Shown here: positions 2,758 to 18,479 of the stretch, piece after piece | How the letters are laid out: each line of letters starts with the position of its first letter | Numbering within the stretch: position 1 is the first letter of the stretch | NCBI GenBank assembly: GCA_002897935.1 | Contig: BDTA01000106.1 | Span: 1 to 37,828 of the forward strand | Source: a bacterium BMS3Abin08 | Lineage (GTDB): Bacteria; Nitrospirota; Thermodesulfovibrionia; Thermodesulfovibrionales; JdFR-85 | Reading direction: 5' to 3' | Length of the DNA: 37,828 bases | Notes under the pieces: generated by a model | Database searches by the model: none | What the model saw: the letters and a program-made list of their open reading frames with translations, nothing else | Told to the model about the DNA's origin: nothing | Made by a program: the position numbers and the translations under genes

Positions 2758-3371
2758 AATTACCTCCAATCATCTATCATATACGTATTGTTATACTAAC
2801 ATTATACGGCTCATTTGTAAAGTATTATTCCATCAAGATTTCTTTTTGAGGCAACGTGGATAGAGGTTCAAACATTCAGTTTTTTACTTGATCTTAAAGG
2901 GACAGGTGGATCGGGGAGCTTACGCTCTCGTCGATCTCTAAGAACGGTGCGAGCGAGTTTCCACACACACTGCTCAAGCCCCTGTAAAGTCTTATTTTAC
3001 AAGGCACACTTGAGATAGAAAACTCTCCCCTGACAGCCTCCTGAATATAGCCTTCCTCAATATATGAACCGTTACATAGGTCTCTCACAGTCTTTGTCTT
3101 TACTTTACTTGCCGTTATTGTCTGACAGATTAAAGTTGTACTGAAATTGGCCGATAATATATTAAGCATTAAGCACAAATTCGTATAGATGGGCGCTGTT
3201 GAAACTCTGCTGGTGGTGGTTGAAAAGTAAAAGACTCTATTGTTTTTCAAGAGTGGAATCTGTGACGTTTCCAGGGGGGCAAGTATAACTACTTATTCAC
3301 ACCCACTCATATACAAGCAATATCCATTCCGTTTAATCTCTGATTTTCCGTACTCAGTGGATTGATTTCTC
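2758..3371. other. Gene-poor gap with toxin-antitoxin promoter and intron remnant
   Basis: This gap holds the promoter region of the toxin-antitoxin pair (about 2765-2815, minus strand) and a group II intron 3' remnant (2906-2975). An open frame on the minus strand (2894-3250, 118 codons) runs through the intron RNA domains and matches no protein family that I recognise, so I do not call it a gene. The sigma-54 activator begins at 3372 without a strong ribosome site. Confidence 0.6.
2906..2975 (-). mobile_element. Group II intron remnant, domains V and VI
   Basis: On the minus strand, 2975-2942 is a 34-nt element beginning GAGC and ending GTTC, with a GAAA tetraloop closed by G-C and a CG bulge. 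This is the exact length and plan of a group II intron domain V, including the AGC triad. Three internal mismatches (A·C, T·T, T·T) suggest decay. Just 3' of it, 2936-2909 folds as a domain VI-like hairpin (GATCG/CGATC outer stem, GAGC-GTAA-GCTC inner stem), followed by AC at 2907-2906 as a possible intron end. No maturase gene is present, so this is a fragment. Basis: structure seen in the sequence; family knowledge for the consensus. Confidence 0.6.
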
Positions 3372-4784
3372 ATGCAGAAGATACTGATCATAGATGATGA
3401 AAAGCTCATAAGGCTTCTCTTACGTGAAATCCTGGAAAGCAAAGACTTCTCTATAATCGAGGCTTCCAGTGGCAGAGATGCCTTAGAGATTTTTCCGAAA
3501 GAAAGGCCCGACTCGGTACTCCTTGATCTTAAAATGCCGGATATGGACGGCATTGAGACCATGCGGAAACTGAAAAAGATTGACCCTGAAATCCCGATTA
3601 TCATAGTAACTGCATATGGTGATATTCCTACTGCGGTAGAGACAATAAAACTTGGAGCGTATGATTTCATAGTCAAATCACCTTCAACCGACAGCATTGT
3701 CTTAACCCTGAACAGGGCTGTTGAAAAGTTGGAATTAGAGAGGGCTGTAAAGAGGCTTAATACCGCCGTAGAGACATCCCTCGAGTGGTTGTTGGGCAGA
3801 AGTGATGCCATGAAAAGGATTATTCAACAGATAAAACAGGTTGCGCAGAGCGATTTTTCCATAATTATTCAGGGAGAGACAGGCACTGGAAAATCCATCG
3901 TTGCCCAAACCATACATAATTTAAGCAAGAGGGCTGAAAAGCCGTTTGTTACGGTTGATATGGGCGCAATACCGGAGAGCCTCGTTGAAAGCGAGCTTTT
4001 TGGACATGAAAAAGGCGCCTTTACAGGGGCTGAGAAAAAGAAAAAAGGGTTCTTTGATGTCGCTGATAGTGGCACTATACTGATAGATGAATTACAGAAT
4101 ATGTCCCCTTTTATGCAGAGTAAGCTTCTCAGCGTGGCCGAAAAAAAGAAGACATATCCCCTGGGCAGTACCCAACCCATACATACGGATGTCCGAATTA
4201 TTGCTGCAACCAATACGGAGATAAAAAGGAATGTAATGGAAAAGAAGTTCAGGGAAGATTTGTTTTTCAGGCTCGGTGAGTTCATAATCAGCCTTCCACC
4301 ATTAAGGAAAAGGATTGAAGACATACCATTTCTTGCCCACAGGTTTCTTACAGAAGCCGGCGCAGAGTTGAACAAACAGACAAGGGAAATATCAGACACT
4401 GCCGTCACCATTTTGATGCAATACCCATGGCCAGGCAATGTGAGAGAGTTAAAAAATGTGGTCAGAAGGGCTGTTCTCTTTTCCGACAACGGTATAGTAA
4501 GACCGGAACATTTAGACTTTTTAACGGAAGACAAATGCGGATTTAATGATACGTCCCGTGTATTGCCTCTTAAAGAGCTTTCCGCTATGGCTGCAAGGGA
4601 GGTAGAGAAAAAGGCCATCAAACATGCACTGGATCTGACCAAGGGTAATAAAACAAAGGCAGCGTCAATATTACAGATAGATTATAAAACCCTTCTTACA
4701 AAGATAAAAGCGTATAGCGTTACCTCGGGAAACCATTCCATAACTATGGAGAGGTTTCCACAAGTTTCCGATCCCTTCAAATAA
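3372..4784 (+). CDS. Sigma-54-dependent NtrC-family response regulator
   Basis: A 470-residue activator with the full three-domain plan. The receiver (1-120) has acidic D8/D9, phospho-acceptor D52, T80 and K102. The AAA+ domain (about 140-370) has Walker A GETGTGKS (168-175), the sigma-54 contact loop GAFTGA (215-220), Walker B ILIDE (236-240) and arginine finger region REDLFFR (294-300). A Fis-type helix-turn-helix spans about 421-448 (KGNKTKAASILQIDYKTLLTKI). A 20-residue tail follows the HTH. No histidine kinase lies nearby. A -24/-12 promoter begins 43 bp after its stop, ahead of the chemotaxis genes, so it probably controls them (inference). Confidence 0.95.
   Translation: MQKILIIDDEKLIRLLLREILESKDFSIIEASSGRDALEIFPKERPDSVLLDLKMPDMDGIETMRKLKKIDPEIPIIIVTAYGDIPTAVETIKLGAYDFIVKSPSTDSIVLTLNRAVEKLELERAVKRLNTAVETSLEWLLGRSDAMKRIIQQIKQVAQSDFSIIIQGETGTGKSIVAQTIHNLSKRAEKPFVTVDMGAIPESLVESELFGHEKGAFTGAEKKKKGFFDVADSGTILIDELQNMSPFMQSKLLSVAEKKKTYPLGSTQPIHTDVRIIAATNTEIKRNVMEKKFREDLFFRLGEFIISLPPLRKRIEDIPFLAHRFLTEAGAELNKQTREISDTAVTILMQYPWPGNVRELKNVVRRAVLFSDNGIVRPEHLDFLTEDKCGFNDTSRVLPLKELSAMAAREVEKKAIKHALDLTKGNKTKAASILQIDYKTLLTKIKAYSVTSGNHSITMERFPQVSDPFK
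4728..4759. promoter_or_regulatory. Inverted repeat, candidate activator binding site
   Basis: GGAAACC (4728-4734) and GGTTTCC (4753-4759) form a perfect inverted repeat, with half-sites 25 bp apart centre to centre. It lies about 100 bp upstream of the expected start of the sigma-54 promoter at 4827, the usual enhancer distance. A further half-site GTTTCC follows at 4764. It lies inside the non-conserved tail of the activator gene. Assignment as enhancer is inference. Confidence 0.4.
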
Positions 4785-4826
4785 GCAACCCCTTTAAAAT
4801 CAACGTGTTAACACGGCTTGGACGTA

Positions 4827-4842
4827 TGGCATTCCTTTTGCT
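4827..4842 (+). promoter_or_regulatory. Sigma-54 (-24/-12) promoter of the chemotaxis genes
   Basis: TGGCATTCCTTTTGCT fits TGGCAN6TTGCW with the correct 10-bp GG-to-GC spacing. It is in the 102-bp gap between the sigma-54 activator and the first receptor gene and reads toward the receptor, giving a leader of about 35 nt before the ribosome site AAGGAGG. Confidence 0.72.
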
Positions 4843-4886
4843 ATTTCAATTTGGAAAATCTGGAAAAACTATAAGGAGGCGGCAGG

Positions 4887-6512
4887 ATGAGACTGATAGA
4901 CAATATGAAAATAGGGACAAGGATAATTGGAACGGTATCCGTTCTCTTGCTTTTACTTGCAATATCCACCGGGTTCGGCATTATCAAGATGGGAAGCATA
5001 GGAGATGAAATAAAGGGAATCGCTGAAGAAGACATCCCGCTGACCGGCAAGATCACTGAAATTGCAAACAACCAATTGGGGCAGGCAATATGGTTTGAAC
5101 GTGCGTTACGATATGGGGAGGTGCTGGCCTCAAAAAAAGTTGCCGTAGCGGGTCTCAAGACCGCTGAGGATGAATTCGCAAAACTCTCCAGGCTATCGGA
5201 TGAAGCGATTACAAAGGCAAAGGAAGTTGCTAAAGAGGCGGCAAAAAAGGCTAAGACGGCCAACGCCCGGAGCGAATTCCGGGAAATAGATCAACACCTG
5301 AAGACCATCGAACAAAAACACTCCGGCTTTGAGAAGGATGTAATGGAGGCATTCCGGATGATTAAACAGGGAAACCTCCACGAGGCCGAGACCATTGCAG
5401 AAAAGATAGAAAAAGACGAAGACGCCATCGATAAAGAGATTGAAAAATTCTTAATGAAGGTTGAAAAATTCACCGGGGAATCGACACTCAGGGCTGATAA
5501 TGATGAGGAGACGGCTGTAAAGGGAATGCTGATTGCCGGTATTATCTCGTTGATTTTTGGATTACTTATGGGTGTCATGGTCACTCGCAGCGTTACCGGG
5601 GTGTTGGGCGAGGTAAAAACGGTGGCCGATACTGTAGCAGCCGCAAGCCGGCAGATGAGCGCCGGTTCAGAAGAACTCTCACAGGGGGCGACAGAACAGG
5701 CCTCCTCGGTTGAGGAGGCGTCATCGTCGATGGAGCAGATGGCCTCCAATATCAGGCAGAATGCCGACAACGCACAGCAGACGGAGAAGATCGCGGTCAA
5801 GTCCGCCGGGGATGCCCGGGAGGGCGGGAAGGCTGTAACAGAAACCGTCAACGCCATGAAGGAGATAGCGGAGAAGATATCGATCATCGAAGAGATAGCA
5901 AGACAGACCAACCTCCTGGCGCTGAATGCGGCTATCGAGGCGGCGCGGGCGGGTGAGCACGGCAAGGGCTTTGCAGTGGTGGCCGCAGAGGTGAGAAAAC
6001 TTGCAGAGCGGAGCCAGACCGCGGCGGCGGAGATCAGCGAGTTATCCGGCACAAGTGTAGAGGTAGCTGAGAAGGCTGGAGAGATGCTTGAAAAGCTCGT
6101 ACCCGACATCCAGAAGACGGCCGAGCTGGTACAGGAGATCAGTGCGGCGAGTAACGAGCAGAATACCGGGGCCGAACAGATAAACAAGGCCATCCAGCAG
6201 CTGGACCAGGTGATACAGCAGAACGCCGGGGCCTCGGAGGAACTGGCCTCGACTTCCGAGGAGTTGTCCTCCCAGGCGGAACAACTCCAAGCCTCTGTAG
6301 CTTCACTCATAAAAACCGACGGCACCGATGGCTTAAAAATCAGGCATAAAAGAAAGCCGACCCAAAAAGCTCATAAAAAAACGGCATACCATTTGCCGGG
6401 TAAAAAACCCCCGGCCCGGGTTAAAGCAGAAGACGACCCTGTAGGCGTCGCCCTTGACATGGGCAGTGAGGGCAACGGAGATGAAAGGGACAAGGAGTTT
6501 GAAAGTTTCTGA
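4887..6512 (+). CDS. Methyl-accepting chemotaxis protein without HAMP
   Basis: A 541-residue receptor: TM1 about 12-33, a helical, charged periplasmic sensor (34-212, four-helix-bundle type), TM2 213-233, then the signalling domain with hairpin tip [20 protein letters not shown] (335-354). No HAMP domain follows TM2. The paralogue starting at 16094 has about 54 more residues exactly there. The C-terminus EFESF fits the x-[aromatic]-x-x-[aromatic] tether that binds CheR/CheB in other receptors. The start has AAGGAGG upstream. It probably is the first gene of the sigma-54 transcript. The ligand cannot be told from sequence. Confidence 0.95.
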
Positions 6513-6594
6513 AATATTACTGTGTGTTATCAATCTGCTCTTTAATGAAAACACGTAGATAGAATACGCAACATACAACTCTAAAGGAGGAAAC

Positions 6595-7080
6595 ATGAGC
6601 GTAGCTGCAATGATAGAGACCACCCAGTACCTGTCCTTTACACTGGGTGACGAGGTGTTTGCCCTGGACATATCCAAGGTCCGGGAGGTGATGGACTTCA
6701 CGACAGTGACAAAGGTGCCCGGAACCCCGGAGTTCATGCGTGGTGTGATAAACCTCCGCGGTAGCGTGGTTCCTGTAGTTGATCTTCGACTGAAGTTTGG
6801 AATGTCGAAGACGGAGAAGACGGTAAACACCTGCATAGTCATAGCAGAGGTACCCCTCGACGGAGATACCACGGTTATTGGTGCCCTTGCAGATTCGGTA
6901 CAGGAGGTATTTGAGCTGAAAGCCGACCAGATGGAGCCACCTCCAAGGATAGGGAGACGTTTAGATACGGAGTTCATTAAGGGTATGGGTAAATGTGACG
7001 AACAGTTCATTATTATCCTTGATATCGACAGGGTCTTTTCCTCGGATGAACTGACCGTCGCACATGAGTCGGGCAGTTAG
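6595..7080 (+). CDS. cheW: CheW coupling protein (copy 1)
   Basis: A 161-residue CheW-like SH3-type protein (typical 150-170). Seen: TQYLSFTLGDEVFALDISKV at the start, VTKVPGTPEFMRGVINLRGS and VVPVVDLR, the conserved receptor/CheA-binding faces. It links receptors to the CheA kinase in the array. GGAGG sits 5 bases before the ATG. It follows the first receptor by 82 bp and is a close paralogue of the CheW at 17964, so the mcp-cheW pair was duplicated as a unit. Confidence 0.96.
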   Translation: MSVAAMIETTQYLSFTLGDEVFALDISKVREVMDFTTVTKVPGTPEFMRGVINLRGSVVPVVDLRLKFGMSKTEKTVNTCIVIAEVPLDGDTTVIGALADSVQEVFELKADQMEPPPRIGRRLDTEFIKGMGKCDEQFIIILDIDRVFSSDELTVAHESGS

Positions 7081-7182
7081 ATGTCTGCCGGGGGGTCGGA
7101 GTATAGGGGGTAATTTCCCGGGTCACAATAAAGACTCGATTCTCTTAACCTCCTCCTTTATCCATGTGAGACTTTTTACTTA

Positions 7183-7281
7183 GAGTCGAACAGTTGTCGC
7201 TCTTTAAGAAGGATTCCGGACAAGCCGGAATGACAAATAACTAATAACAGATGACAAATAACTGTAATTTATACACAGACC
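7183..7281 (-). repeat. MITE-like repeat, family A, copy 1 (truncated)
   Basis: Reverse-oriented relative of the repeats at 14491, 14629 and 18606. It shares GTGTATAAATTAC-type ends, TTATTTGTCATTCC and the palindromic core ATTCCGGACAAGCCGGAAT. The GTCGAAC end lacks the terminal TGTGTATAAA, so it is truncated on the left side. Confidence 0.65.
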
Positions 7282-7286
7282 CGAAT

Positions 7287-7314
7287 TAAAGTTTTTTTAT
7301 TAATTGTCCGAAGG
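7287..7314 (+). promoter_or_regulatory. Possible sigma-28 (flagellar) promoter
   Basis: TAAAGTTT, a perfect -35 element for FliA-type sigma factors, is followed after 12 bp by TCCGAAGG, which keeps the CCGA core of the GCCGATAA -10 element. The spacing is one longer than the usual 11. It lies 66 bp before the short receptor and cheY. Chemotaxis genes are classic sigma-28 targets. Confidence 0.4.
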
Positions 7315-7380
7315 TATACTTAAATAAAAAAACCGGAGCAACATCTAAAAGGACTACGGGTATAAAAAAGGTATGCTGCT

Positions 7381-8553
7381 ATGAAACGTAACTTGAAGTT
7401 ATATGGGAAAATTTTCCTGGTCTTTTTATGCGTTACCGCAGCATCCATGATAGAGCACAGGACGATAAGGGTTCTTGTAAACATAGCCATATACGCTGCT
7501 TTCATTTCAATAACCTATCAATTAATGAAGAAAAATCTGAAAAGCTTAGAGGATAACTACCTGAAAAAGGAAAAGAGACACCTCTCGGAGATAGAAGAGA
7601 CGGTGGTGCCCATGACGGGGTTCCTTCTTGAAAGGGCACAGCTCATGCCTGTATTGACCAACCAGCTGACAGAGGTAATACAACAGACGGAATCTGCAGC
7701 CCTGGATATAGGCGACCGGTTCATGAACATCGTCGAGAGGGCCCGGAACCAGGCAAGGAAGGCATCAGGTGCCTTCAGCAGGTTTGCAGGAGACGATGAA
7801 GACGGCAAGGGTGCCCTTCTCGACCTCAGCAAGAAGGCCCTCTCGGATGTAATAGAGAGCATGAAAGGCATTGCTACCGTTGTTGAACAGACCCTTGCGG
7901 GTATGGAGTTGATTATTGAAGATGCTGAGAACATAAGAAAGATAGTCTCGGAGATCGAATACATAGCGGAACAAACAAACCTCCTTGCCCTTAACGCAGC
8001 TATCGAGGCAGCAAGGGCAGGAGAGCATGGAAGGGGATTTGCCATTGTTGCAGACGAGGTAAGAAAACTCTCCGACAGGTCAAATGCCGCAGCAGATGAG
8101 ATACGAAAACTCATTACAAAGGTTGAAACAGACATGAAGGATATCTATTTAAAGACGGAAAAGAGCACCTCCGAGAGTAATGCGTTGTCTTCGGAGGCTG
8201 AAATGGTCGTGGAAGATACACTGAAAGAGATAGATGGCGTGATGAATGATGCAAAAAAACAGCTTGAAGAACTCACTGCGGAAACCGAATCCCTTGCAAA
8301 GGATATAAGTAGCATTATCATCTCCATGCAGTTTCAGGACATAACAAGGCAGCGCATAGAGCATGTGATTGAACCACTGCTCTCGTTTAAATCAGACCTG
8401 GAAAAAACAACTCAAAAGATCAGGAATATGAGTGAGAAGATTCATGAAGCACAAGGTAACGGCGGTGCGGCATGGCTTGAAAATATGTATACAATGGAGG
8501 CAGAAAGAGATGTAATGAAGAACATGCTCGATAAAGTCGGTAAGGGGAATTAA
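7381..8553 (+). CDS. Short membrane MCP with CheZ-like motif
   Basis: A 390-residue receptor with two closely spaced N-terminal membrane segments (about 9-25 and 30-49) and no periplasmic sensor or HAMP. Residues 82-120 ([20 protein letters not shown] onward) are a helical region. The signalling hairpin tip is [20 protein letters not shown] (197-216). Near the end [14 protein letters not shown] places D320 and Q324 with the same D-x3-Q spacing as the CheZ active site (DFQDLTGQ). The gene ends two bases before cheY. It may sense membrane or cytoplasmic signals and might dephosphorylate CheY (inference). The C-terminus has no CheR tether. Confidence 0.9.
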
Positions 8554-8555
8554 AC

Positions 8556-8921
8556 ATGGCAAAAACTCTTTTAATAGTAGATGACTCAGCTTCCATGAGA
8601 CAGCTCGTATCCTTTGCTTTAAAGGATGCAGGATATGAAGTGATTACCGCAATAAATGGAAGGGATGCGCTGAATAAACTGAATGGCACAAAGATTGATA
8701 TGGTAATCACTGATCTTAATATGCCGGAGATGGATGGGATTGAATTCATAAAACAACTGCGCAGTAACTCCGGATACAAATTCACACCCGTGCTTATGCT
8801 GACGACGGAATCTCAGGAATCAAAGAAACAGGAAGGCAAGCAGGCAGGCGCCAGCGGCTGGATAGTAAAACCCTTTACACCTGAACAGTTGATAACTACT
8901 ACAAAAAAATTTGTGAGATAA
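8556..8921 (+). CDS. cheY: CheY response regulator
   Basis: A single-domain receiver of 121 residues with acidic pocket D9/D10, phospho-acceptor D53 (MVITDLNMPEMDG), T83/T84 and K105 in VKPFTPEQL. No output domain, hence CheY: phosphorylated by CheA, it diffuses to the flagellar switch. It begins two bases after the preceding receptor gene, so the two are co-translated or at least co-transcribed. It could also be a CheY that acts as a phosphate sink. Confidence 0.95.
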   Translation: MAKTLLIVDDSASMRQLVSFALKDAGYEVITAINGRDALNKLNGTKIDMVITDLNMPEMDGIEFIKQLRSNSGYKFTPVLMLTTESQESKKQEGKQAGASGWIVKPFTPEQLITTTKKFVR

Positions 8922-8964
8922 AAATAATAACTATACATGCTTCTCTAAAAGGAGGAAACGAACA

Positions 8965-9309
8965 ATGGAACTACAGGTTGAACAGTCGGGTGATATAGAA
9001 AGGTTGACTTTTGCCGGTGAACTGACCGTACAGCATTCGGATAAACTGAGGGTATCCCTGATGAGGACACTGGATAGTGTAAATCACGTATTTATCGATC
9101 TCGAAAATGTGACATCGGTTGACCTGTCCTGCCTGCAACTTCTCTGTTCGGCCTGTCATTCCTCACAGAAATTAAACAAACTCCTGACGATAACGGACAA
9201 ACGTCCGGAGATTTTCAAAAAGGCAATCGAGGATGCCGGATATTCCCGCCATGTAGGTTGTGCCTCTACTATCAACAAAAGCTGCTTATGGATAGAAAAT
9301 GGCAACTGA
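8965..9309 (+). CDS. STAS-domain protein
   Basis: A 114-residue STAS domain like anti-sigma-factor antagonists. It has beta strands around RLTFAGELTVQHSDKLR, and the loop VTSVDLSCLQLLCSA places S55 where SpoIIAA-type proteins are phosphorylated. AAGGAGG precedes the ATG by 8 bases. Position between cheY and cheA, 19 bp before cheA, indicates a chemotaxis role. STAS proteins occur in several chemotaxis clusters, but their job there is not settled. No partner anti-sigma kinase is present in the window. Confidence 0.85.
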   Translation: MELQVEQSGDIERLTFAGELTVQHSDKLRVSLMRTLDSVNHVFIDLENVTSVDLSCLQLLCSACHSSQKLNKLLTITDKRPEIFKKAIEDAGYSRHVGCASTINKSCLWIENGN

Positions 9310-9328
9310 CGGGAAGGAGGTTCATGCG

Positions 9329-11788
9329 ATGGACAAACATAGAGAAGCCTTCAGAGATGAAGCATATGAATTACTGGCTGAGCTTGAAACATCACTGCTT
9401 GAGCTTGAAGATGCGCCTGAGGATATCGAAATTATCGGGCGCGTCTTTCGTGCAATGCATACGATCAAAGGCTCAGGGGCCATGTTCGGGTTTGATGACA
9501 TTGCAGCATTTACACACGAAATCGAAACGGTTTTCGATCTTGTACGGAACGGGGAAATATCCGTCACAAAAGAGTTGATCGACCTGACACTCTCCGCCCG
9601 TGACCATATCCGTACAATGCTTGACGCCTCTGATGGAGGTGAGACAACGGATGAGGTAATGGCCGGAGAGATCATGGCATCCCTCAAGAAGCTGATTCCA
9701 GGCAGTGAAGAGACAAAAGAGGATGCCGAGGGCCCGGTGCTGCTGACAGATCTGATCGATGAGGCTATTGTCAGGGTGCTCTCCGAAAATGAAGAACAAA
9801 GACTGAGAGCAAATATAAAGAAAAACAAGAGGATATACTGCATAGACACAGTCGCCTCTTCTCCCGATTTTGACAGTGCACTCTCCGAGATCAAGGCAAA
9901 GATCAAAAAACAAGGTGAATTAATATCGATCCATCCAATCTCTGAAGATGTCACTGCCGGTACCGTAAGATTTAAATTACTCTTTGCCTCCGACAAGACC
10001 CCTGAATCTCTGAAAGCCGCCTTAGGGGTTATGCCTGAGCAGATTACGAGTAGAACGGGAGAGGATGATTTTAGTTCAACAGGCCTCCCGTCATCCGATA
10101 CCCGGGAAGAAAGCATCACCTACCGTATCAGATTCCGCCCCTCCCGGGATATTTTCGCAAAAGGCACAAATCCGGTTCTCTTGCTTGACGAGCTTCGCCA
10201 GAGCGGTAAATGCAAGGTGGTGGCACAGACGGATGCCATCCCGTTGTTGGAAGACTTTGATCCTGAGGCCTGTTACACATACTGGGATGTGATTCTGACC
10301 ACCCATCGAGGGATAAATGCCATAAAAGACGTGTTTATCTTTGTTGAGGACGACAGCGAGTTGATCATCGATGTCATCGATGATGACGGAAGACTGGACA
10401 ATGAAGCCGGTTACAAGAGGCTTGGAGAGATCCTGATTGAACGTGGCGATCTGACACATGAGGATCTTCAAAAAGTGCTCAGTTCCCAGAAACGCATTGG
10501 AGAGATGCTGGTTGATGCCGGAGTGATCGACACCGGAAAGGTCCAATCAGCGCTTATTGAACAGCAGCACGTCAGTGATGTAAGAGAGAGCCGCCGGAAG
10601 GCGGAATCCCTCTCAAGCATCAGGGTGTCCTCAGGTAAGCTGGACAGTCTTGTGGACCTGGTGGGTGAGCTGGTGACGGTTCAGTCCCGCTTAAGCCGGA
10701 CGGCTGCCTATCAAAACGATCCCGAGTTACTCTCTATAGCAGAGGAGGTGGAACGTTTGACCTGCGAACTCCGTGACAACACGATGAGCATCCGCATGCT
10801 TCCGATCGGGACGACGTTCAGTAAATTCAGACGTCTGGTGCGTACCCTTTCCAACGAACTGGGTAAGGAGGTCGTAATGACGACCGAGGGAGCAGAGACG
10901 GAACTGGATAAGACGGTAATCGAACGCTTAAACGATCCCCTTGTGCACCTGATCAGAAACAGCATCGATCACGGGATAGAACTTCCCGGGGTACGTGAGG
11001 GTTCAGGGAAACCGAGACAGGGGACGGTACATCTTTCGGCAATACACTCCGGCGCCAATGTACTGATCAGGATAGAGGATGACGGTTCAGGGCTTAATGC
11101 CGGGGCCATAAAGGCCATGGCCTTGGAGAAGGGACTGGTCTCGCATGATCTGGAAATGACGGAAAAAGAGGTGTTTGCATTAATCTTTGCCCCGGGATTT
11201 TCCACCGCAAAAAACGTTACGGGCGTATCCGGACGCGGGGTGGGAATGGACGTTGTTAAAAGGGGTATCGAAGCTCTCAGGGGCTCAATCGACATAAACA
11301 GTAAGAAGGGCGCCGGGACGACTATTACCCTGAAACTGCCACTCACACTGGCGATCATTGACGGTCTTCTGGTGAAGGTTGCAGGAGAATTCTTCGTATT
11401 GCCCCTTTCGATTGTAGAGGGATGCGTGGAACTGTCGCGTGAAGACGTGGCAAGGGCCCACGGCCGGCATGTGGCAAATGTCCGCGGGGAACTGGTTCCA
11501 TACATCTGCCTGAAAGAACACTTCATGATAAACAGAGAGGCCCCGGGCATAGAGCAAATAGTGATAACAGAGGTGGACGGCAGCAGGGTCGGTTTTGTGG
11601 TGGATAATGTGATAGGTGAGCACCAGACCGTAATCAAATCACTGGGCAGCTTCTACAAAGACATGGAAGGAGTATCAGGGGCGACCATACTGGGTGACGG
11701 AAGGGTGGCCCTGATTCTGGATGCCCCAAAGCTCGTTCAGGCTGTGGAACGGGAAGAGGCAGGGATATATAGCAACATACAAAGCTAA
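9329..11788 (+). CDS. cheA: CheA histidine kinase with inserted MshEN-like module
   Basis: An 819-residue CheA. P1 Hpt has phosphorylatable H44 (RAMHTIKGSGAMFGFD). The region of about 165-350 is long and holds two alpha/beta stretches (around IRFRPSRDIFAKGTNPVLLL) in the P2 place. At 362-415 two tandem units LGEILIERGDL and IGEMLVDAGVI resemble the MshEN/GspE-N fold, unusual for CheA. Then P3 dimerisation (434-500), the ATPase with N-box HLIRNSIDHG, EDDGSGL and GRGVGMD, and a C-terminal CheW-like P5. The start is set at 9329 because AAGGAGG lies 8 bases upstream; an ATG at 9299 would overlap the STAS gene. Confidence 0.96.
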   Translation: MDKHREAFRDEAYELLAELETSLLELEDAPEDIEIIGRVFRAMHTIKGSGAMFGFDDIAAFTHEIETVFDLVRNGEISVTKELIDLTLSARDHIRTMLDASDGGETTDEVMAGEIMASLKKLIPGSEETKEDAEGPVLLTDLIDEAIVRVLSENEEQRLRANIKKNKRIYCIDTVASSPDFDSALSEIKAKIKKQGELISIHPISEDVTAGTVRFKLLFASDKTPESLKAALGVMPEQITSRTGEDDFSSTGLPSSDTREESITYRIRFRPSRDIFAKGTNPVLLLDELRQSGKCKVVAQTDAIPLLEDFDPEACYTYWDVILTTHRGINAIKDVFIFVEDDSELIIDVIDDDGRLDNEAGYKRLGEILIERGDLTHEDLQKVLSSQKRIGEMLVDAGVIDTGKVQSALIEQQHVSDVRESRRKAESLSSIRVSSGKLDSLVDLVGELVTVQSRLSRTAAYQNDPELLSIAEEVERLTCELRDNTMSIRMLPIGTTFSKFRRLVRTLSNELGKEVVMTTEGAETELDKTVIERLNDPLVHLIRNSIDHGIELPGVREGSGKPRQGTVHLSAIHSGANVLIRIEDDGSGLNAGAIKAMALEKGLVSHDLEMTEKEVFALIFAPGFSTAKNVTGVSGRGVGMDVVKRGIEALRGSIDINSKKGAGTTITLKLPLTLAIIDGLLVKVAGEFFVLPLSIVEGCVELSREDVARAHGRHVANVRGELVPYICLKEHFMINREAPGIEQIVITEVDGSRVGFVVDNVIGEHQTVIKSLGSFYKDMEGVSGATILGDGRVALILDAPKLVQAVEREEAGIYSNIQS

Positions 11789-11831
11789 ACCCGCAGCAAC
11801 TATCTTAATTTCTACCTTGCATCAAGAGAAG

Positions 11832-12704
11832 ATGGACTATAACGGCTATAAGGACGTATTTAAGACGACTTTGTCAACAAAGGAATTTACCCGTCTGGGC
11901 GAATTCATCCAAACAGAGTGCGGCATTAAAATGTCGGCTTCAAAGAAGACCATGCTTGAGGCAAGGCTCCGCAAAAGACTGCGCTGCCTGGATATGGAGT
12001 CATTCAGCGAATACTGCGACTACCTGTTCAGCCCTCGGGGGGTTAAAAATGAACTGATCCACATGATTGATGTTGTCACTACCAATAAGACCGACTTCTT
12101 CAGGGAGCCTGCTCATTTCGATTATCTGTTCCATACGGCATTGCCCGAGTTGATTGCCTCCCGTGGTTCGGGCATTAGAAAAAAACTCATGCTCTGGAGT
12201 GCCGGCTGTTCCACAGGCGAGGAGCCGTACACCCTATCAATGGTCTTGAGTGAATTTGCTGAAAGTCATCCCGGATCTGCAATTAACTACATGATCCTTG
12301 CCACCGATATTTCAACAAAAGTGCTTGAGCAGGCAAAACTTGGAATTTACGAATATGACAAAATAGAACCGATACCGATGGAATTCAGGAAGAAATATCT
12401 CCTGCGAGGCAAGGACAGGGGGAAAAAACTGATAAGAATCATACCGGAACTGAGGACGGTTATAAAATTCCGGAGATTGAATTTCATGGAAGGTGACTTT
12501 GGCATGAGAGAGCCTATGGACATCATCTTTTGCCGCAACGTTATCATTTACTTTGACAGGCCGACCCAGGAAATACTGTTAAACCGCTTTTGCCGTCACT
12601 TAAGGCCCGGAGGCTATATCTTTATGGGACACTCCGAGACGCTTCATGGCCTGAACGTCCCTTTAGTCCAGGCTGCTCCAATGGTCTACAGGAAACCGAT
12701 GTGA
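11832..12704 (+). CDS. cheR: CheR protein-glutamate methyltransferase
   Basis: A 290-residue CheR. The helical N-terminal domain includes TNKTDFFREPAHFDYL. The SAM-binding motif WSAGCSTGEEPYTLSM follows, then ATDIS, IIFCRNVIIYF and the C-terminal GHSETL. It methylates receptor glutamates in adaptation. The start at 11832 (MDYNGYKD) lies 43 bases after the cheA stop; the frame extends upstream into cheA but that part has no CheR similarity. Its TGA overlaps the GTG of cheD by 4 bases. Confidence 0.96.
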   Translation: MDYNGYKDVFKTTLSTKEFTRLGEFIQTECGIKMSASKKTMLEARLRKRLRCLDMESFSEYCDYLFSPRGVKNELIHMIDVVTTNKTDFFREPAHFDYLFHTALPELIASRGSGIRKKLMLWSAGCSTGEEPYTLSMVLSEFAESHPGSAINYMILATDISTKVLEQAKLGIYEYDKIEPIPMEFRKKYLLRGKDRGKKLIRIIPELRTVIKFRRLNFMEGDFGMREPMDIIFCRNVIIYFDRPTQEILLNRFCRHLRPGGYIFMGHSETLHGLNVPLVQAAPMVYRKPM

Positions 12705-13243
12705 ACCCGTTAAAAACAAAACTGCCTGTTGTTTATCTTAAACCCGGCGAGATGTATACGGCAGAGAGGCCAACCATGGTGTCAACAGTGCTTGGATCCT
12801 GTGTATCCGTTACGATGTTCAGCCGCCGCCTCAAGATAGGGGCCATCTGTCATGGATTTCTGCCAAAATGCACGAATACGAAACACTGTGATAGTCATTA
12901 CATGGAAGAGTTTAAGTATGTCGACTATTCCATCATGCAAATGATTGAAGGCTTTGATAAATATGGTATTAAACGCAGTGAGATCGAGGTTAAACTATTC
13001 GGCGGTGCAGATGCTTTATCTTTACAGGGAGATAAACCCGGTACCTTTACCGTAGGAAGACAGAATATTCAAACAGCCATACAGGTCATCAAAAACGAAA
13101 GGCTCCATCTTATCATCTCCGATACCGGGGGGTTGCGGGGTCGTAAACTTATATTCTATACACACACCGGCGAGGTGCTTTTAAAACGTCTGAAACAAGG
13201 AAGATTTGTTAAAAAACCAACATTATCAAGGAATCTTAAATGA
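12701..13243 (+). CDS. cheD: CheD receptor glutamine deamidase
   Basis: A 180-residue CheD with GTG start at 12701, overlapping the cheR stop as GTGA. The catalytic cysteine is C34 in [11 protein letters not shown] and the histidine H51 in AICHGFLP, 17 residues apart as in the Thermotoga enzyme. LFGGAD and [17 protein letters not shown] are family motifs. It deamidates receptor glutamines and, in some species, binds CheC. No CheC is visible here. Its stop overlaps cheB by 4 bases (ATGA), so cheR-cheD-cheB are translationally coupled. Confidence 0.95.
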
Positions 13244-14304
13244 AAAAGAAAATCAAGGTACTTATTATAGACGACTCCGCTATAGTCCGTCAGACACTGG
13301 AAGAGATACTTTCTTCAGATCCGCAGATAGAAGTGATGGACACCGCCGCAGACCCGATTATAGCTGCTGAGAAAATCAGACATGCAATTCCGGATGTTAT
13401 CACCCTGGATGTGGAAATGCCGCGTATGGACGGCATCAGATTTTTGCATATAATTATGAGCCAGCACCCCATTCCTGTCGTCATGTGCTCGAGCCTCACT
13501 GAAAAGGGATCTGAAACAGCCCTGGAGGCCCTTGAATACGGAGCAGTTGAAATTATCCAGAAACCAAGAATTGGAGCAAAACAGTTTCTGGAAGAATCAA
13601 GAATCCGCATATGTGATGCGGTGAAGGCGGCATCTATCGCAAGGCCGAGGCGACTTACAAAATCCCGGAAGATTGAACCAAAGCTTACAGCCGATGCCAT
13701 TATTCCCAGGACTACATCAAAGGCAATGACACAGACAACCGAACGGGTTGTTGTTATAGGAGCATCAACGGGCGGTACAGAGGCGCTGAGGGTTTTTCTT
13801 GAAACCCTCCCCATCGACTCCCCAGGCATAGTAATAGTGCAGCACATGCCGGAGCATTTTACCACCGCCTTTGCCAGGCGACTCGATGGTATTTGCAGGG
13901 TATCGGTCAAAGAGGCTGCCAATAACGACACAGCAATCAGGGGCCGGGCGCTTATTGCCCCGGGGAACCGTCATACACTGCTCAAACGCAGTGGCGCACG
14001 TTACTATGTTGAGGTTAAAGACGGGCCGTTAGTCTGCCGGCACCGCCCCTCTGTGGACGTCCTGTTCCGTTCGGCAGCCCGCTACGCAGGCAAAAATGCC
14101 GTGGGTGTTATTATGACCGGGATGGGTGACGACGGTGCACGCGGGATGATAGAGATGAGGGACTCAGGTGCATTCACAATCGCCCAGGACGAAAAAACGT
14201 CGGTGGTCTTTGGAATGCCCAATGAGGCCATCAAAAGGGGTGGTGTGGATATTGTCCTTCCACTTGAAAAGATCGCAAAAGAGGTAATCAGTACCTGTGG
14301 ATAA
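13240..14304 (+). CDS. cheB: CheB protein-glutamate methylesterase
   Basis: A 354-residue CheB: receiver with D57 ([13 protein letters not shown]), linker about 130-165, and the methylesterase domain with catalytic S176 ([12 protein letters not shown]), H202 ([11 protein letters not shown]) and D298 ([12 protein letters not shown]). Phosphorylated by CheA, it removes receptor methyl groups. It starts within the cheD stop (ATGA). It is the last gene of the tightly packed cheR-cheD-cheB block; more than 800 bp without genes follows. Confidence 0.97.
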
Positions 14305-14490
14305 CCATCTGATATAGAAATGTTTAATCAGCAATCCACGCAAGAACCAACGATTGCTTCATCGCTTTACTCTCACCCCCCTTCCGACAATCCACAGACT
14401 TGCTCAGGCAGTTTTAATCTATACCACTGCCGGATTTTGTCTATTCGGCACTCCTGCCTTCTGAACGGTCTTTAAGCAAATGGGTTAGAC

Positions 14491-16041: not shown

Positions 16042-16093
16042 AAACGCCTTGAAAAAATGTCAAATTTTCAACTTATTTAAAGGAGGAAATGGG

Positions 16094-17881
16094 ATGAATA
16101 TTATGAATAACATGAAAATTGGAACCAAGATCCTTGGTGTGGTGTCCGCTCTCCTGGGATTGATGGTGATAGTTGCCCTGTTCGGTATCATAAAGATAGG
16201 GAGCATAGGGAATGAAATAAAGGGAATCGCTGAAGAAGACATCCCGCTGACCAGGGCGGTCACTGCAATTGGAAACAACCAACTGGAGCAGGCAATATGG
16301 CTTGAACGTGGTTTAAGGTTTGGACAGGTGCGGACGGCAAAGGAGGTTGCAAGAGAGGGCCTTAAGACCGCTGAAGGAGAATTCGAAAGAATAGCCAAGT
16401 TGTCGGATGAAAAGATTAAAGAAGCAGAGAAAATAGCTGAAGAGGCGGCAGGAAAAGCCAGGACAGCAGATGCCCGGAGAAAATTTCAGGATATAGGAGA
16501 ACAACTCAAGGTCATTAAAAAAGAACATGCCGGCATAGGGAAGCGTGTAAGGGAGGCATTCCAACTGATTAAGCAGGGAAGACTTAACGAGGCAGGGACT
16601 CTTGCTCAAAAGATAGAAAAAGAGGAAGACGCCCTTGATAAAGAAATCAACAAATTCTTAAAAAAGGTTGAGAAATTTACCGGGAAAGCTGCACTCACGG
16701 CAGAAGGTGACGAAAAGACGGCTGTAAGGGGAATGGGGTTTCTTACTATTTTCTCCTTTATCTTTGGACTTGGTGCAGGGATTCTCATCACCCGCAGAAT
16801 AACCCGTCCAATGCACGAAGCTGTTAGAGTAGCCAATCAATTGTCCAAGGGAGACCTGACACTGAGTATAGATGTCTACGGCAAGGACGAAACAGGTCAG
16901 TTACTTGCAGCAATGAAAAACATGGCTGAAAAACTAAAGGAAATTGTGGCCGATGTGCAGTCCTCAGCAGACAATGTGGCCTCAGGCAGCCAGGAGATGA
17001 GTGCCGGTTCAGAGCAACTCTCACAGGGGGCGACAGAGCAGGCCTCATCGGTTGAGGAGGCATCATCGTCAATGGAACAGATGGCCTCCAATATAAGGCA
17101 GAATGCCGACAACGCACAGCAGACGGAGAAGATCGCGGTTAAATCCGCCGAGGATGCCCGGAAGGGCGGAAAGGCTGTAACAGAGACCGTCAACGCCATG
17201 AAGGAGATCGCTGAGAAGATATCGATCATCGAGGAGATAGCAAGGCAGACTAACCTCCTGGCATTGAATGCAGCTATTGAGGCAGCGCGGGCAGGTGAGC
17301 ACGGCAAGGGCTTTGCAGTGGTGGCCGCAGAGGTGAGAAAACTTGCAGAGCGGAGCCAGACCGCAGCGGCAGAGATCAGTGAGTTATCCGGCACAAGTGT
17401 AGAGGTAGCTGAGAAGGCTGGAGAGATGCTTGAAAAGCTCGTGCCCGATATCCAGAAGACAGCCGAACTGGTACAGGAGATCAGTGCGGCGAGTAACGAG
17501 CAGAATACGGGGGCCGAACAGATAAACAAGGCCATCCAGCAACTGGACCAGGTGATACAGCAGAACGCCGGGGCCTCGGAGGAACTGGCCTCGACCTCAG
17601 AGGAGCTTGCAAGCCAGGCAGAGCAGCTCCTGAGCGCGATTGAATTCTTTAAAGTTGGAGATAATGACAGGGAAATAACCGGAAGGACGGCGAAAAGACA
17701 AAAGAGGAGTTCTAAGGCAGCCAAAAAAGTAAAAGTTGCACCTTTGATACATGAAGAAGCTAACAGTCATGGAGATATTACAAACGAAACAAAAGACACC
17801 GGCAAACCGGCAGGGGTTGTTTTTAATATGGACAACGGCGGAAATGGAGACGAAATAGACAACGAGTTTGAGAGGTTTTAA
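16094..17881 (+). CDS. Methyl-accepting chemotaxis protein with HAMP
   Basis: A 595-residue receptor. TM1 lies at the N-terminus, the periplasmic helical sensor is related to that of the receptor at 4887, TM2 is near residue 216-235, then a HAMP domain ([20 protein letters not shown], ending before [10 protein letters not shown]) and the signalling domain. From MSAGSE to QAEQL the protein and DNA are nearly identical to the first receptor, while the sensor halves differ clearly. The tail ends EFERF, a CheR/CheB-tether type pentapeptide. The start at 16094 has AAAGGAGG 7 bases upstream; a further ATG at 16049 has none. Confidence 0.95.
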
Positions 17882-17892
17882 ACTGGAAGAAA

Positions 17893-17915
17893 GATTCCCG
17901 ACAAGCGGGAATGAC
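17893..17915 (+). repeat. Variant palindromic repeat core
   Basis: ATTCCCGACAAGCGGGAAT, flanked by GAC on the right, is a variant of the ATTCCGGACAAGCCGGAAT core found in the family A repeats. It lies in the 82-bp gap between the receptor and cheW, the same gap size as in the first mcp-cheW pair, where it is absent. Confidence 0.6.
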
Positions 17916-17963
17916 ACAACATGCGCAATAATTTATGACGCTGCATATATAATGGAGGACAAT

Positions 17964-18479
17964 ATGGGTGTAGCTACAATAACAGATGTAACACAGTACC
18001 TGTCCTTTATGCTGGGGGAGGAGGTATTTGCCCTGGATATATCCAAGGTCAGGGAGGTACTGGACTCCACGACAGTGACAAAGGTACCCCGGACACCGGA
18101 GTTCATGTGCGGGGTGATCAACCTCAGGGGTGGTGTGGTGCCTGTTGTAGACATGCGATTGAAGTTCGGAATGTCGAAGACGGCAAAGACTGTAAACACC
18201 TGTATCATCATAGTAGAGGTATCTCTGGGGGGAGAGGCCACGGTGCTTGGCGCCCTGGCCGACTCGGTACAGGAGGTGTTCGACCTCGAGCCGGATCAGA
18301 TAGAGCCACCCCCGAAGATTGGGACAAAGCTGAACATAGAGTTCATCAGTGGCATGGGTAAGCGGAGTGACCGGTTCGTTATCATCCTTGACATCGACAG
18401 GGTGTTTTCCGCGGATGAGCTAACCGTTGTGCAGGAAGCGGAAGGTTATATTTCCAATAGTGAACAGGAGGAGGATTAA
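17964..18479 (+). CDS. cheW: CheW coupling protein (copy 2)
   Basis: A 171-residue CheW, closely similar along its length to the copy at 6595 (VTQYLSFMLGEEVFALDISK; VINLRGGVVPVVDMR; GALADSVQEVF; ILDIDRVFS). An acidic tail of about 10 residues is extra. The start at 17964 is chosen because GGAGG lies 5 bases upstream; an ATG 12 bases earlier overlaps that site. Pairs with the receptor at 16094. The second copy may couple a different receptor set to CheA, or simply add dosage. Confidence 0.95.
   Translation: MGVATITDVTQYLSFMLGEEVFALDISKVREVLDSTTVTKVPRTPEFMCGVINLRGGVVPVVDMRLKFGMSKTAKTVNTCIIIVEVSLGGEATVLGALADSVQEVFDLEPDQIEPPPKIGTKLNIEFISGMGKRSDRFVIILDIDRVFSADELTVVQEAEGYISNSEQEED

Follow-up and report, generated by a model that had tools for sequence, protein, structure and literature searches.

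The CheA kinase encoded in the window, by which we mean the whole stretch of 37,828 nucleotides analysed here, has an enlarged region between its Hpt and dimerisation domains, and the question raised by this locus is what that region consists of and whether it could allow a nucleotide second messenger to act directly on a chemotaxis kinase. The gene (9299-11788, plus strand) encodes a protein of 829 amino acids in which the Hpt, dimerisation, HATPase_c and CheW domains follow each other in this order; all four core domains score above their Pfam cut-offs, which identifies the protein as a CheA chemotaxis kinase. From the N-terminus onwards its parts are P1, a grafted P2, a P2-like domain, a compact MshEN_N pair, P3, P4 and P5, located in the window as follows.

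9344..9631, plus strand: Hpt domain (P1), residues 16-111 (PF01627, E 1.2e-16)
9761..10060, plus strand: grafted P2 domain of the CheY-binding type, residues 155-254, exactly 100 codons (from the gap in the sister copy L009 and the identities to P2 domains)
10100..10396, plus strand: second ferredoxin-like (P2-like) domain, family-wide, residues 268-366 (alignment A4 of 64 CheAs, AlphaFold2)
10418..10489, plus strand: MshEN-type motif I, residues 374-397 (NF053729; motif definition from PMC5013675)
10490..10492, plus strand: one-residue linker, K398, in place of the five residues of Vibrio cholerae MshE
10493..10564, plus strand: MshEN-type motif II, residues 399-422 (NF053729)
10532..10609, plus strand: long predicted helix that links the second half of motif II with the dimerisation domain, residues 412-437 (AlphaFold2)
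10613..10792, plus strand: dimerisation domain H-kinase_dim (P3), residues 439-498 (PF02895, E 1.1e-12)
10934..11746, plus strand: kinase domain HATPase_c (P4) and CheW-like domain (P5), residues 546-683 and 689-816 (PF02518 and PF01584)

An earlier note had taken the sequence after P1 for an enlarged P2 region of alpha/beta character. Enlarged and alpha/beta it proved to be, but it comprises two ferredoxin-like domains, not one: in the AlphaFold2 model residues ~155-254 and 268-366 each have a ferredoxin-like secondary structure, with a pLDDT of mostly ~65-81 in the former and ~95-97 in the core of the latter, and the alignment used for the prediction held no second copy of the former. The second domain is present throughout the aligned CheA family, where it is strongly conserved, and its profile finds matches in 97 of the 245 genomes searched in the phylum; it has no Pfam match in the window CheA. 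With the CheY-binding P2 domain (PF07194; Thermotoga maritima 1u0s) it shares the ferredoxin-like fold (Z 7.6, rmsd 3.4, 77 aligned residues), a score tied with those of ribosomal protein S6 and many other ferredoxin-like folds. Profile comparison did not detect kinship between the two domains (probability 0.74%), and PDB profile searches with the P2 alignment and with the alignment of the second domain returned chance matches only. CheAs with a duplicated P2 are known and are described as duplications in section 10 of PMC10542144; the window CheA differs from the P2 systems compared in having two such domains in tandem without detectable kinship.

The first of the two domains, residues 155-254, is homologous to the P2 regions of canonical CheAs. 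It is 61-63% identical to the P2 of the canonical CheA in four genomes of a sister genus, 51-55% to that of two further genomes of the same genus and 49% to that of the canonical CheA paralog of its own genome. PF07194 gives the domain 16.3 bits, below the cut-off of 23, and the model reaches E <=1 in all 11 aligned P2 regions, at best 9.5e-7. A P2 profile was also made from 15 canonical CheAs. Among the 133 ORF records that match a CheA-MshEN profile, which contain duplicates and other MshEN proteins, it hit only the window gene, the four double hits being one gene. A search with the insert found matches in 80 of 295 genomes, and two matches in its own genome only. The G+C content of the domain is 0.44, compared with 0.519 in the remaining CheA gene.

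A P2 at this site might be ancestral in this class of CheA and have been lost in all sampled relatives, as canonical CheAs have a P2 at the same place and a loss probably did happen once, in the sister copy described below. We regard this as improbable: the domain is absent from all 78 relatives that cover the site (two of the 80 loci, L061 and L081, begin downstream of it), and in a tree of 16 P2 sequences the insert groups, on a long end branch (0.75), with the four P2s of the sister genus, a genus of the same family (support 88/83), although the kinase core of the window CheA is only 35-40% identical to those of canonical CheAs. An ancestral P2 would be expected to be about as distant from the canonical P2s as the core is. 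We conclude from these sequence comparisons that the P2 came from a canonical CheA into the lineage of the window CheA, by a graft between CheA paralogs. Of 12 nearly invariant columns in an alignment of 11 sequences, six are broken by the grafted P2 alone, so that this domain may be changing its role or decaying.

The history of the graft can be followed in a sister copy of the gene, L009, which lacks exactly 300 nucleotides (100 codons) in frame, while the flanking DNA is 93.8% (upstream) and 94.0% (downstream) identical to that of the window. L009, L092 and L135 apparently belong to one contig (the record of L009 is as long as L135, 13,335 bases) and are counted as one observation. Directly before the gap L009 has the residues DLIDE, an apparent scar: the motif [LIV]IDEAI stands at the start of the P2 in all six sister-genus canonical CheAs and in none of the nine other canonical CheAs compared, and L009 is alone among the 78 covering relatives in having a motif of this kind in the linker. 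A GAGG repeat flanks the gap. That the sister copy lost its P2 is well supported. Since the five-residue scar has been kept, it is moderately secure, as judged from the sequences, that the graft was already in the common ancestor of the window gene and L009, and that L009 lost it by deletion at the GAGG repeat. An assembly artefact fusing two CheA genes might account for an architecture seen in a single copy in a draft assembly of 123 contigs. We give this explanation very little credence: the insert is in frame and exactly 100 codons long, the closest match elsewhere in its own genome and in 12 related genomes reaches 63% identity, so that no source of a mis-join was found, and the apparent scar is kept in the sister copy. 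The graft amounts to a domain swap made in nature between two paralogous CheAs, and the window gene and its sister copy, with ~94% identical flanking DNA and no P2 in the latter, are a ready pair for studying the role of P2 in the choice of CheY.

Between the P2-like domain and P3 lie the two repeats that had been compared to tandem MshEN units within 9820-10600: LGEILIERGDL (residues 375-385) and IGEMLVDAGVI (residues 400-410) are both present, and the resemblance was borne out by profile and sequence searches. NF053729, the model of the MshE-type c-di-GMP motif, matches a 73-amino-acid fragment of CheA with 46.1 bits (E 3.1e-12, cut-off 38) and the whole protein with 37.7 bits (E 1.3e-9), slightly below the cut-off. 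By phmmer the fragment matches PilF of Thermus (6f8l) with an E of 3.3e-12 and MshE (5htl) with an E of 0.0039. In the other direction, a profile made from 79 CheAs finds the c-di-GMP-binding domain of PilF (8pdk, E 2.5e-8) and MshE (5htl, E 8.1e-8), and picks up other MshEN proteins in related genomes. These 79 rows are the window CheA and 78 of 80 relatives, the best 80 of 132 confirmed loci; L069 and L080 were omitted, the pair being missing or scrambled in these two of the 80 close relatives. NF053729 reaches E <=0.01 in each of the 79 rows. The profile search that the earlier note had recommended thus succeeded with NF053729 but failed with the Pfam model of MshEN, PF05157, which had no match up to E 10 in CheA or in two CheA fragments; as NF053729 does match, we consider PF05157 uninformative as a test of MshEN here.

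What the CheA pair has in common with the MshEN_N domains of V. cholerae MshE (5htl), Thermus PilF (8pdk) and NF053729 is the tandem of 24-residue motifs, the conserved Arg/Lys-Leu-Gly and the Leu...Leu..Gln, and the profiles match in both directions. It differs from them in its linker of one residue, its total of 49 residues instead of 53, the missing PF05157 match, a predicted arrangement unlike 5htl, and its position between a P2-like domain and P3. The homology, judged from these searches, goes beyond chance. As the pair has 49 residues with a linker of one in place of the 53-residue layout, we class it on sequence grounds as a derived variant of MshEN_N that stands outside canonical membership; binding of c-di-GMP by it is plausible.

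In MshE, according to Wang et al. (PMC5013675), the layout comprises 53 residues (24+5+24) and each 24-residue motif reads RLGxx(LVI)(LVI)xxG(LVI)(LVI)xxxxLxxxLxxQ. Compared with this consensus the outcome for the window CheA is divided: the ligand-contacting positions (R, L, G, L, L and Q in each of the two motifs) are kept in 12 of 12 cases, ten of them identical, but the 53-residue layout is not found, the two motifs being joined by the single residue K398. Motif I (R-L-G...L...L..Q) is identical to the published pattern at all six positions; motif II (R-I-G...V...L..Q) is identical at four and has two conservative replacements (L to I and L to V). Only one hydrophobic position deviates, the eleventh of motif I, which has D instead of L, V or I; this D11 is found in 66 of the 79 CheA rows. 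Over these rows, with R/K, L/I/V, G, L/I/V, L/I/V and Q allowed at the key positions, 30 (the window included) keep all 12, 17 keep 11, 25 keep ten, six keep nine and one keeps eight. G3, L21, E23 and Q24 of motif II are invariant (79/79). Motif I starts with K in 62 rows and with R in 17, K for R being found also in the c-di-GMP-binding PilF domain 8pdk; its position 24 holds Gln in 42 rows and another residue in 37. Motif II starts with R in 39 rows and with P in 28. Besides D11, the residues specific to the CheAs are R9 of motif I (72/79) and E23 of motif II, both at positions that are free in the ligand motif.

The distance from the Gly of motif I to that of motif II is 25 residues in 55 of the 79 CheAs, 22 in 23 and 29 in one. 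Other MshEN ORFs, 27 of which (most of 550-620 amino acids) were taken from PF05157 loci and are probably pilus or secretion ATPases, have a spacing of 29 in 22 cases, 28 in one and 31 in one, three being not measurable. The 23 rows with a spacing of 22, of which 22 are titled Magnetococcales and one Candidatus Magnetaquicoccus, have lost the end of motif I including its Gln and are three residues shorter again. Relative to MshE, 4 or 7 residues are deleted, roughly one or two turns of a helix, which suggests a bundle that retained its phase through the loss of the linker and, in the 23 rows, of the end of motif I. The one CheA with a full five-residue linker (L075:3730-3960) offers a natural control for binding. 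A second group of CheAs (L106-L114), 39-46% identical to the window CheA, has a spacing of 25 in nine of nine members, and its motif I starts with F, L or Y instead of R.

In a small AlphaFold2 model the pair folds into four helices with a mean pLDDT of 90, blocks of 92-97 across most of its length and a pTM of 0.56. The last helix (412-437) reaches the start of the dimerisation domain, and the same helices recur in a longer AlphaFold2 model. The first-ranked Foldseek hit is 5htl, the c-di-GMP-bound MshE, but the superposition is poor (E 2.5, TM 0.38, rmsd 11.7), and the arrangement predicted for the single chain is thus unlike that of 5htl. Among the 22 chains compared with the small model by VIA-align 5htl is not listed, which carries no weight either way.

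The pair occupies what we take to be the place of the flexible P2-P3 tether of a textbook CheA. We tentatively propose, at somewhat below an even chance, that it is a c-di-GMP-responsive hinge before the dimerisation domain: c-di-GMP would bind the MshEN pair, the ligand would alter the placement of the P1 and P2 arms with respect to the kinase core, and the hinge would thereby set the flow of phosphate to CheY. The grafted P2 would be a second CheY-docking site of the kind found in canonical CheAs, possibly connecting the array to the CheY of the canonical system. The complete set of key positions, the K for R shared with 8pdk, the NF053729 match in every row, the naming of CheA as an MshEN fusion partner by Wang et al., the helix running from motif II into P3 and the c-di-GMP-related genes of the genome argue for the hinge; the latter amount to 10 GGDEF, 7 PilZ and 8 PF05157 matches, and therefore c-di-GMP is very likely both made and read in this organism. 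Against the hinge stand the linker of one residue in 55 of the 79 rows and its further shortening in 23, D11, the Gln at position 24 of motif I in no more than 42 of the 79, the weak superposition on 5htl with a pTM of 0.56, and the two of 80 relatives without an intact pair. The deviation of the grafted P2 in six of the 12 columns common to the other ten P2 sequences also counts against this scheme.

Nearly tied with the hinge, and likewise just short of an even chance, is the explanation that the derived pair no longer binds a ligand and serves as a helical spacer or protein-docking module, placing P1 and P2 beside P3, the core of the fold having been kept and the nucleotide site lost. The spacings of 29, 25 and 22, which descend by roughly helical-turn steps, are what would be expected if phase and not a pocket had been selected. 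The frequent replacement of the Gln at position 24 of motif I (37/79) and the Pro at position 1 of motif II (28/79), the retention of R9, D11 and E23, which the ligand motif does not require, and the poor fit to 5htl are also in line with a ligand-free module. The same module, however, leaves it unaccounted for that none of the 12 key positions is lost in the window and in 29 further rows, and that Gly3, Leu21 and Gln24 of motif II are invariant beyond the needs of a generic spacer.

The short linker also bears on a third explanation, which we consider rather unlikely: c-di-GMP would be bound only by the dimer, between motif I of one protomer and motif II of the other beside P3, and would staple the CheA dimer together. 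Cross-protomer pairing is suggested because the short linker would prevent an MshE-like bundle within one chain, and it agrees with the helix leading into the dimerisation domain, the kept key residues and a single-chain model unlike 5htl; the local confidence of that single-chain model (the blocks of 92-97) and the full five-residue linker of L075 argue against it. A wider, still more speculative version, for which we see but a small chance, would have c-di-GMP bridge the domain-swapped MshEN motifs across the CheA dimer and lock the P1 and P2 arms, while the borrowed P2 re-addresses phosphate to the canonical CheY. If this domain-swap version were true, a second messenger would directly gate chemotactic phosphotransfer, and the output partner would have been changed by the transfer of a domain between paralogs.

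To our knowledge, c-di-GMP has so far been linked to chemotaxis by way of adaptors or CheY-like proteins, with MapZ and a CheY-like protein as examples, and a CheA with its own c-di-GMP-type module would place the messenger on the central kinase. The records of CheAs with the shortened pair are titled as several different phyla, and the conserved shortening by about a helical turn at a time would allow nucleotide binding without the five-residue linker to be tested. The fusion as such is already in print: CheA is named among the fusion partners of MshEN in section 12 of Wang et al. 2016 (PMC5013675), the same domain partnership as in the window CheA. Supplementary table aside, the portions of that paper covered describe neither the short linker nor an added P2. 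In the main text of the CheA architecture survey PMC10542144 the terms MshEN, GspE, T2SSE and c-di-GMP do not occur, and the CheA-MshEN fusion is not named in the portions covered of PMC12943098, PMC10542144 and PMC10212136. The form with a one-residue linker and the P2 graft look new with respect to the portions of the literature searched, supplementary tables aside, in which a prior notice is possible.

The CheA gene is part of a chemotaxis block, in which CheW, CheY, CheR, CheD and CheB were putatively assigned from their translations and neighbours, and the others by Pfam.

3372, plus strand: sigma-54-type response regulator
4887, plus strand: MCP
6595, plus strand: CheW
7381-8553, plus strand: MCP-like protein
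8556, plus strand: CheY
8965, plus strand: STAS protein
11721-12704 (ORF), plus strand: CheR
12590-13243 (ORF), plus strand: CheD
13240, plus strand: CheB

The block has a counterpart in contig C22 of G015, which represents another genus in the same family: over 3117..14308 (plus strand) the two share 92-94% DNA identity (blastn against L135), and at the protein level the identities are 88.7-97.5%, some proteins being in two pieces. CheB is 95% identical to that of G015, 76-78% to that of four genomes of other families and at most 56% to that of the other searched members of its own family. The housekeeping baseline is Der/EngA, encoded on the same contig as the block: compared with 11 further genomes of the family it shows 60-65% protein identity, and no copy turned up in G015. 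Also on this contig, but not within the block, a Wzz/GNVR-type gene shares 59-67% identity with G002, G003, G005 and G007, four genomes that represent other genera in the family, and only 30-32% with the genus sharing the block. From these identities the che block has probably moved between genera horizontally. Misbinning of the contig was considered and is unlikely, the Wzz/GNVR-type gene being closest to those of the four genomes just named.

Several smaller features accompany the block. The pair of MCP and CheW is duplicated in the window (4873-7058 and 16080-18436), with three pairs of 300-nucleotide repeats that are 74, 89 and 80% identical. A palindrome-like intergenic repeat, GATTCCGGACAAGCCGGAATGAC, occurs at 7212, 14564, 18688 and 18941 of the window, and in L135 a neighbouring repeat marks the end of the shared block, near 11692-11769. 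The C-terminal part of the MCP-like protein (7381-8553) shows a weak match to the CheZ phosphatase (E 2.1e-4, 21.7 bits, below the cut-off of 30.7).
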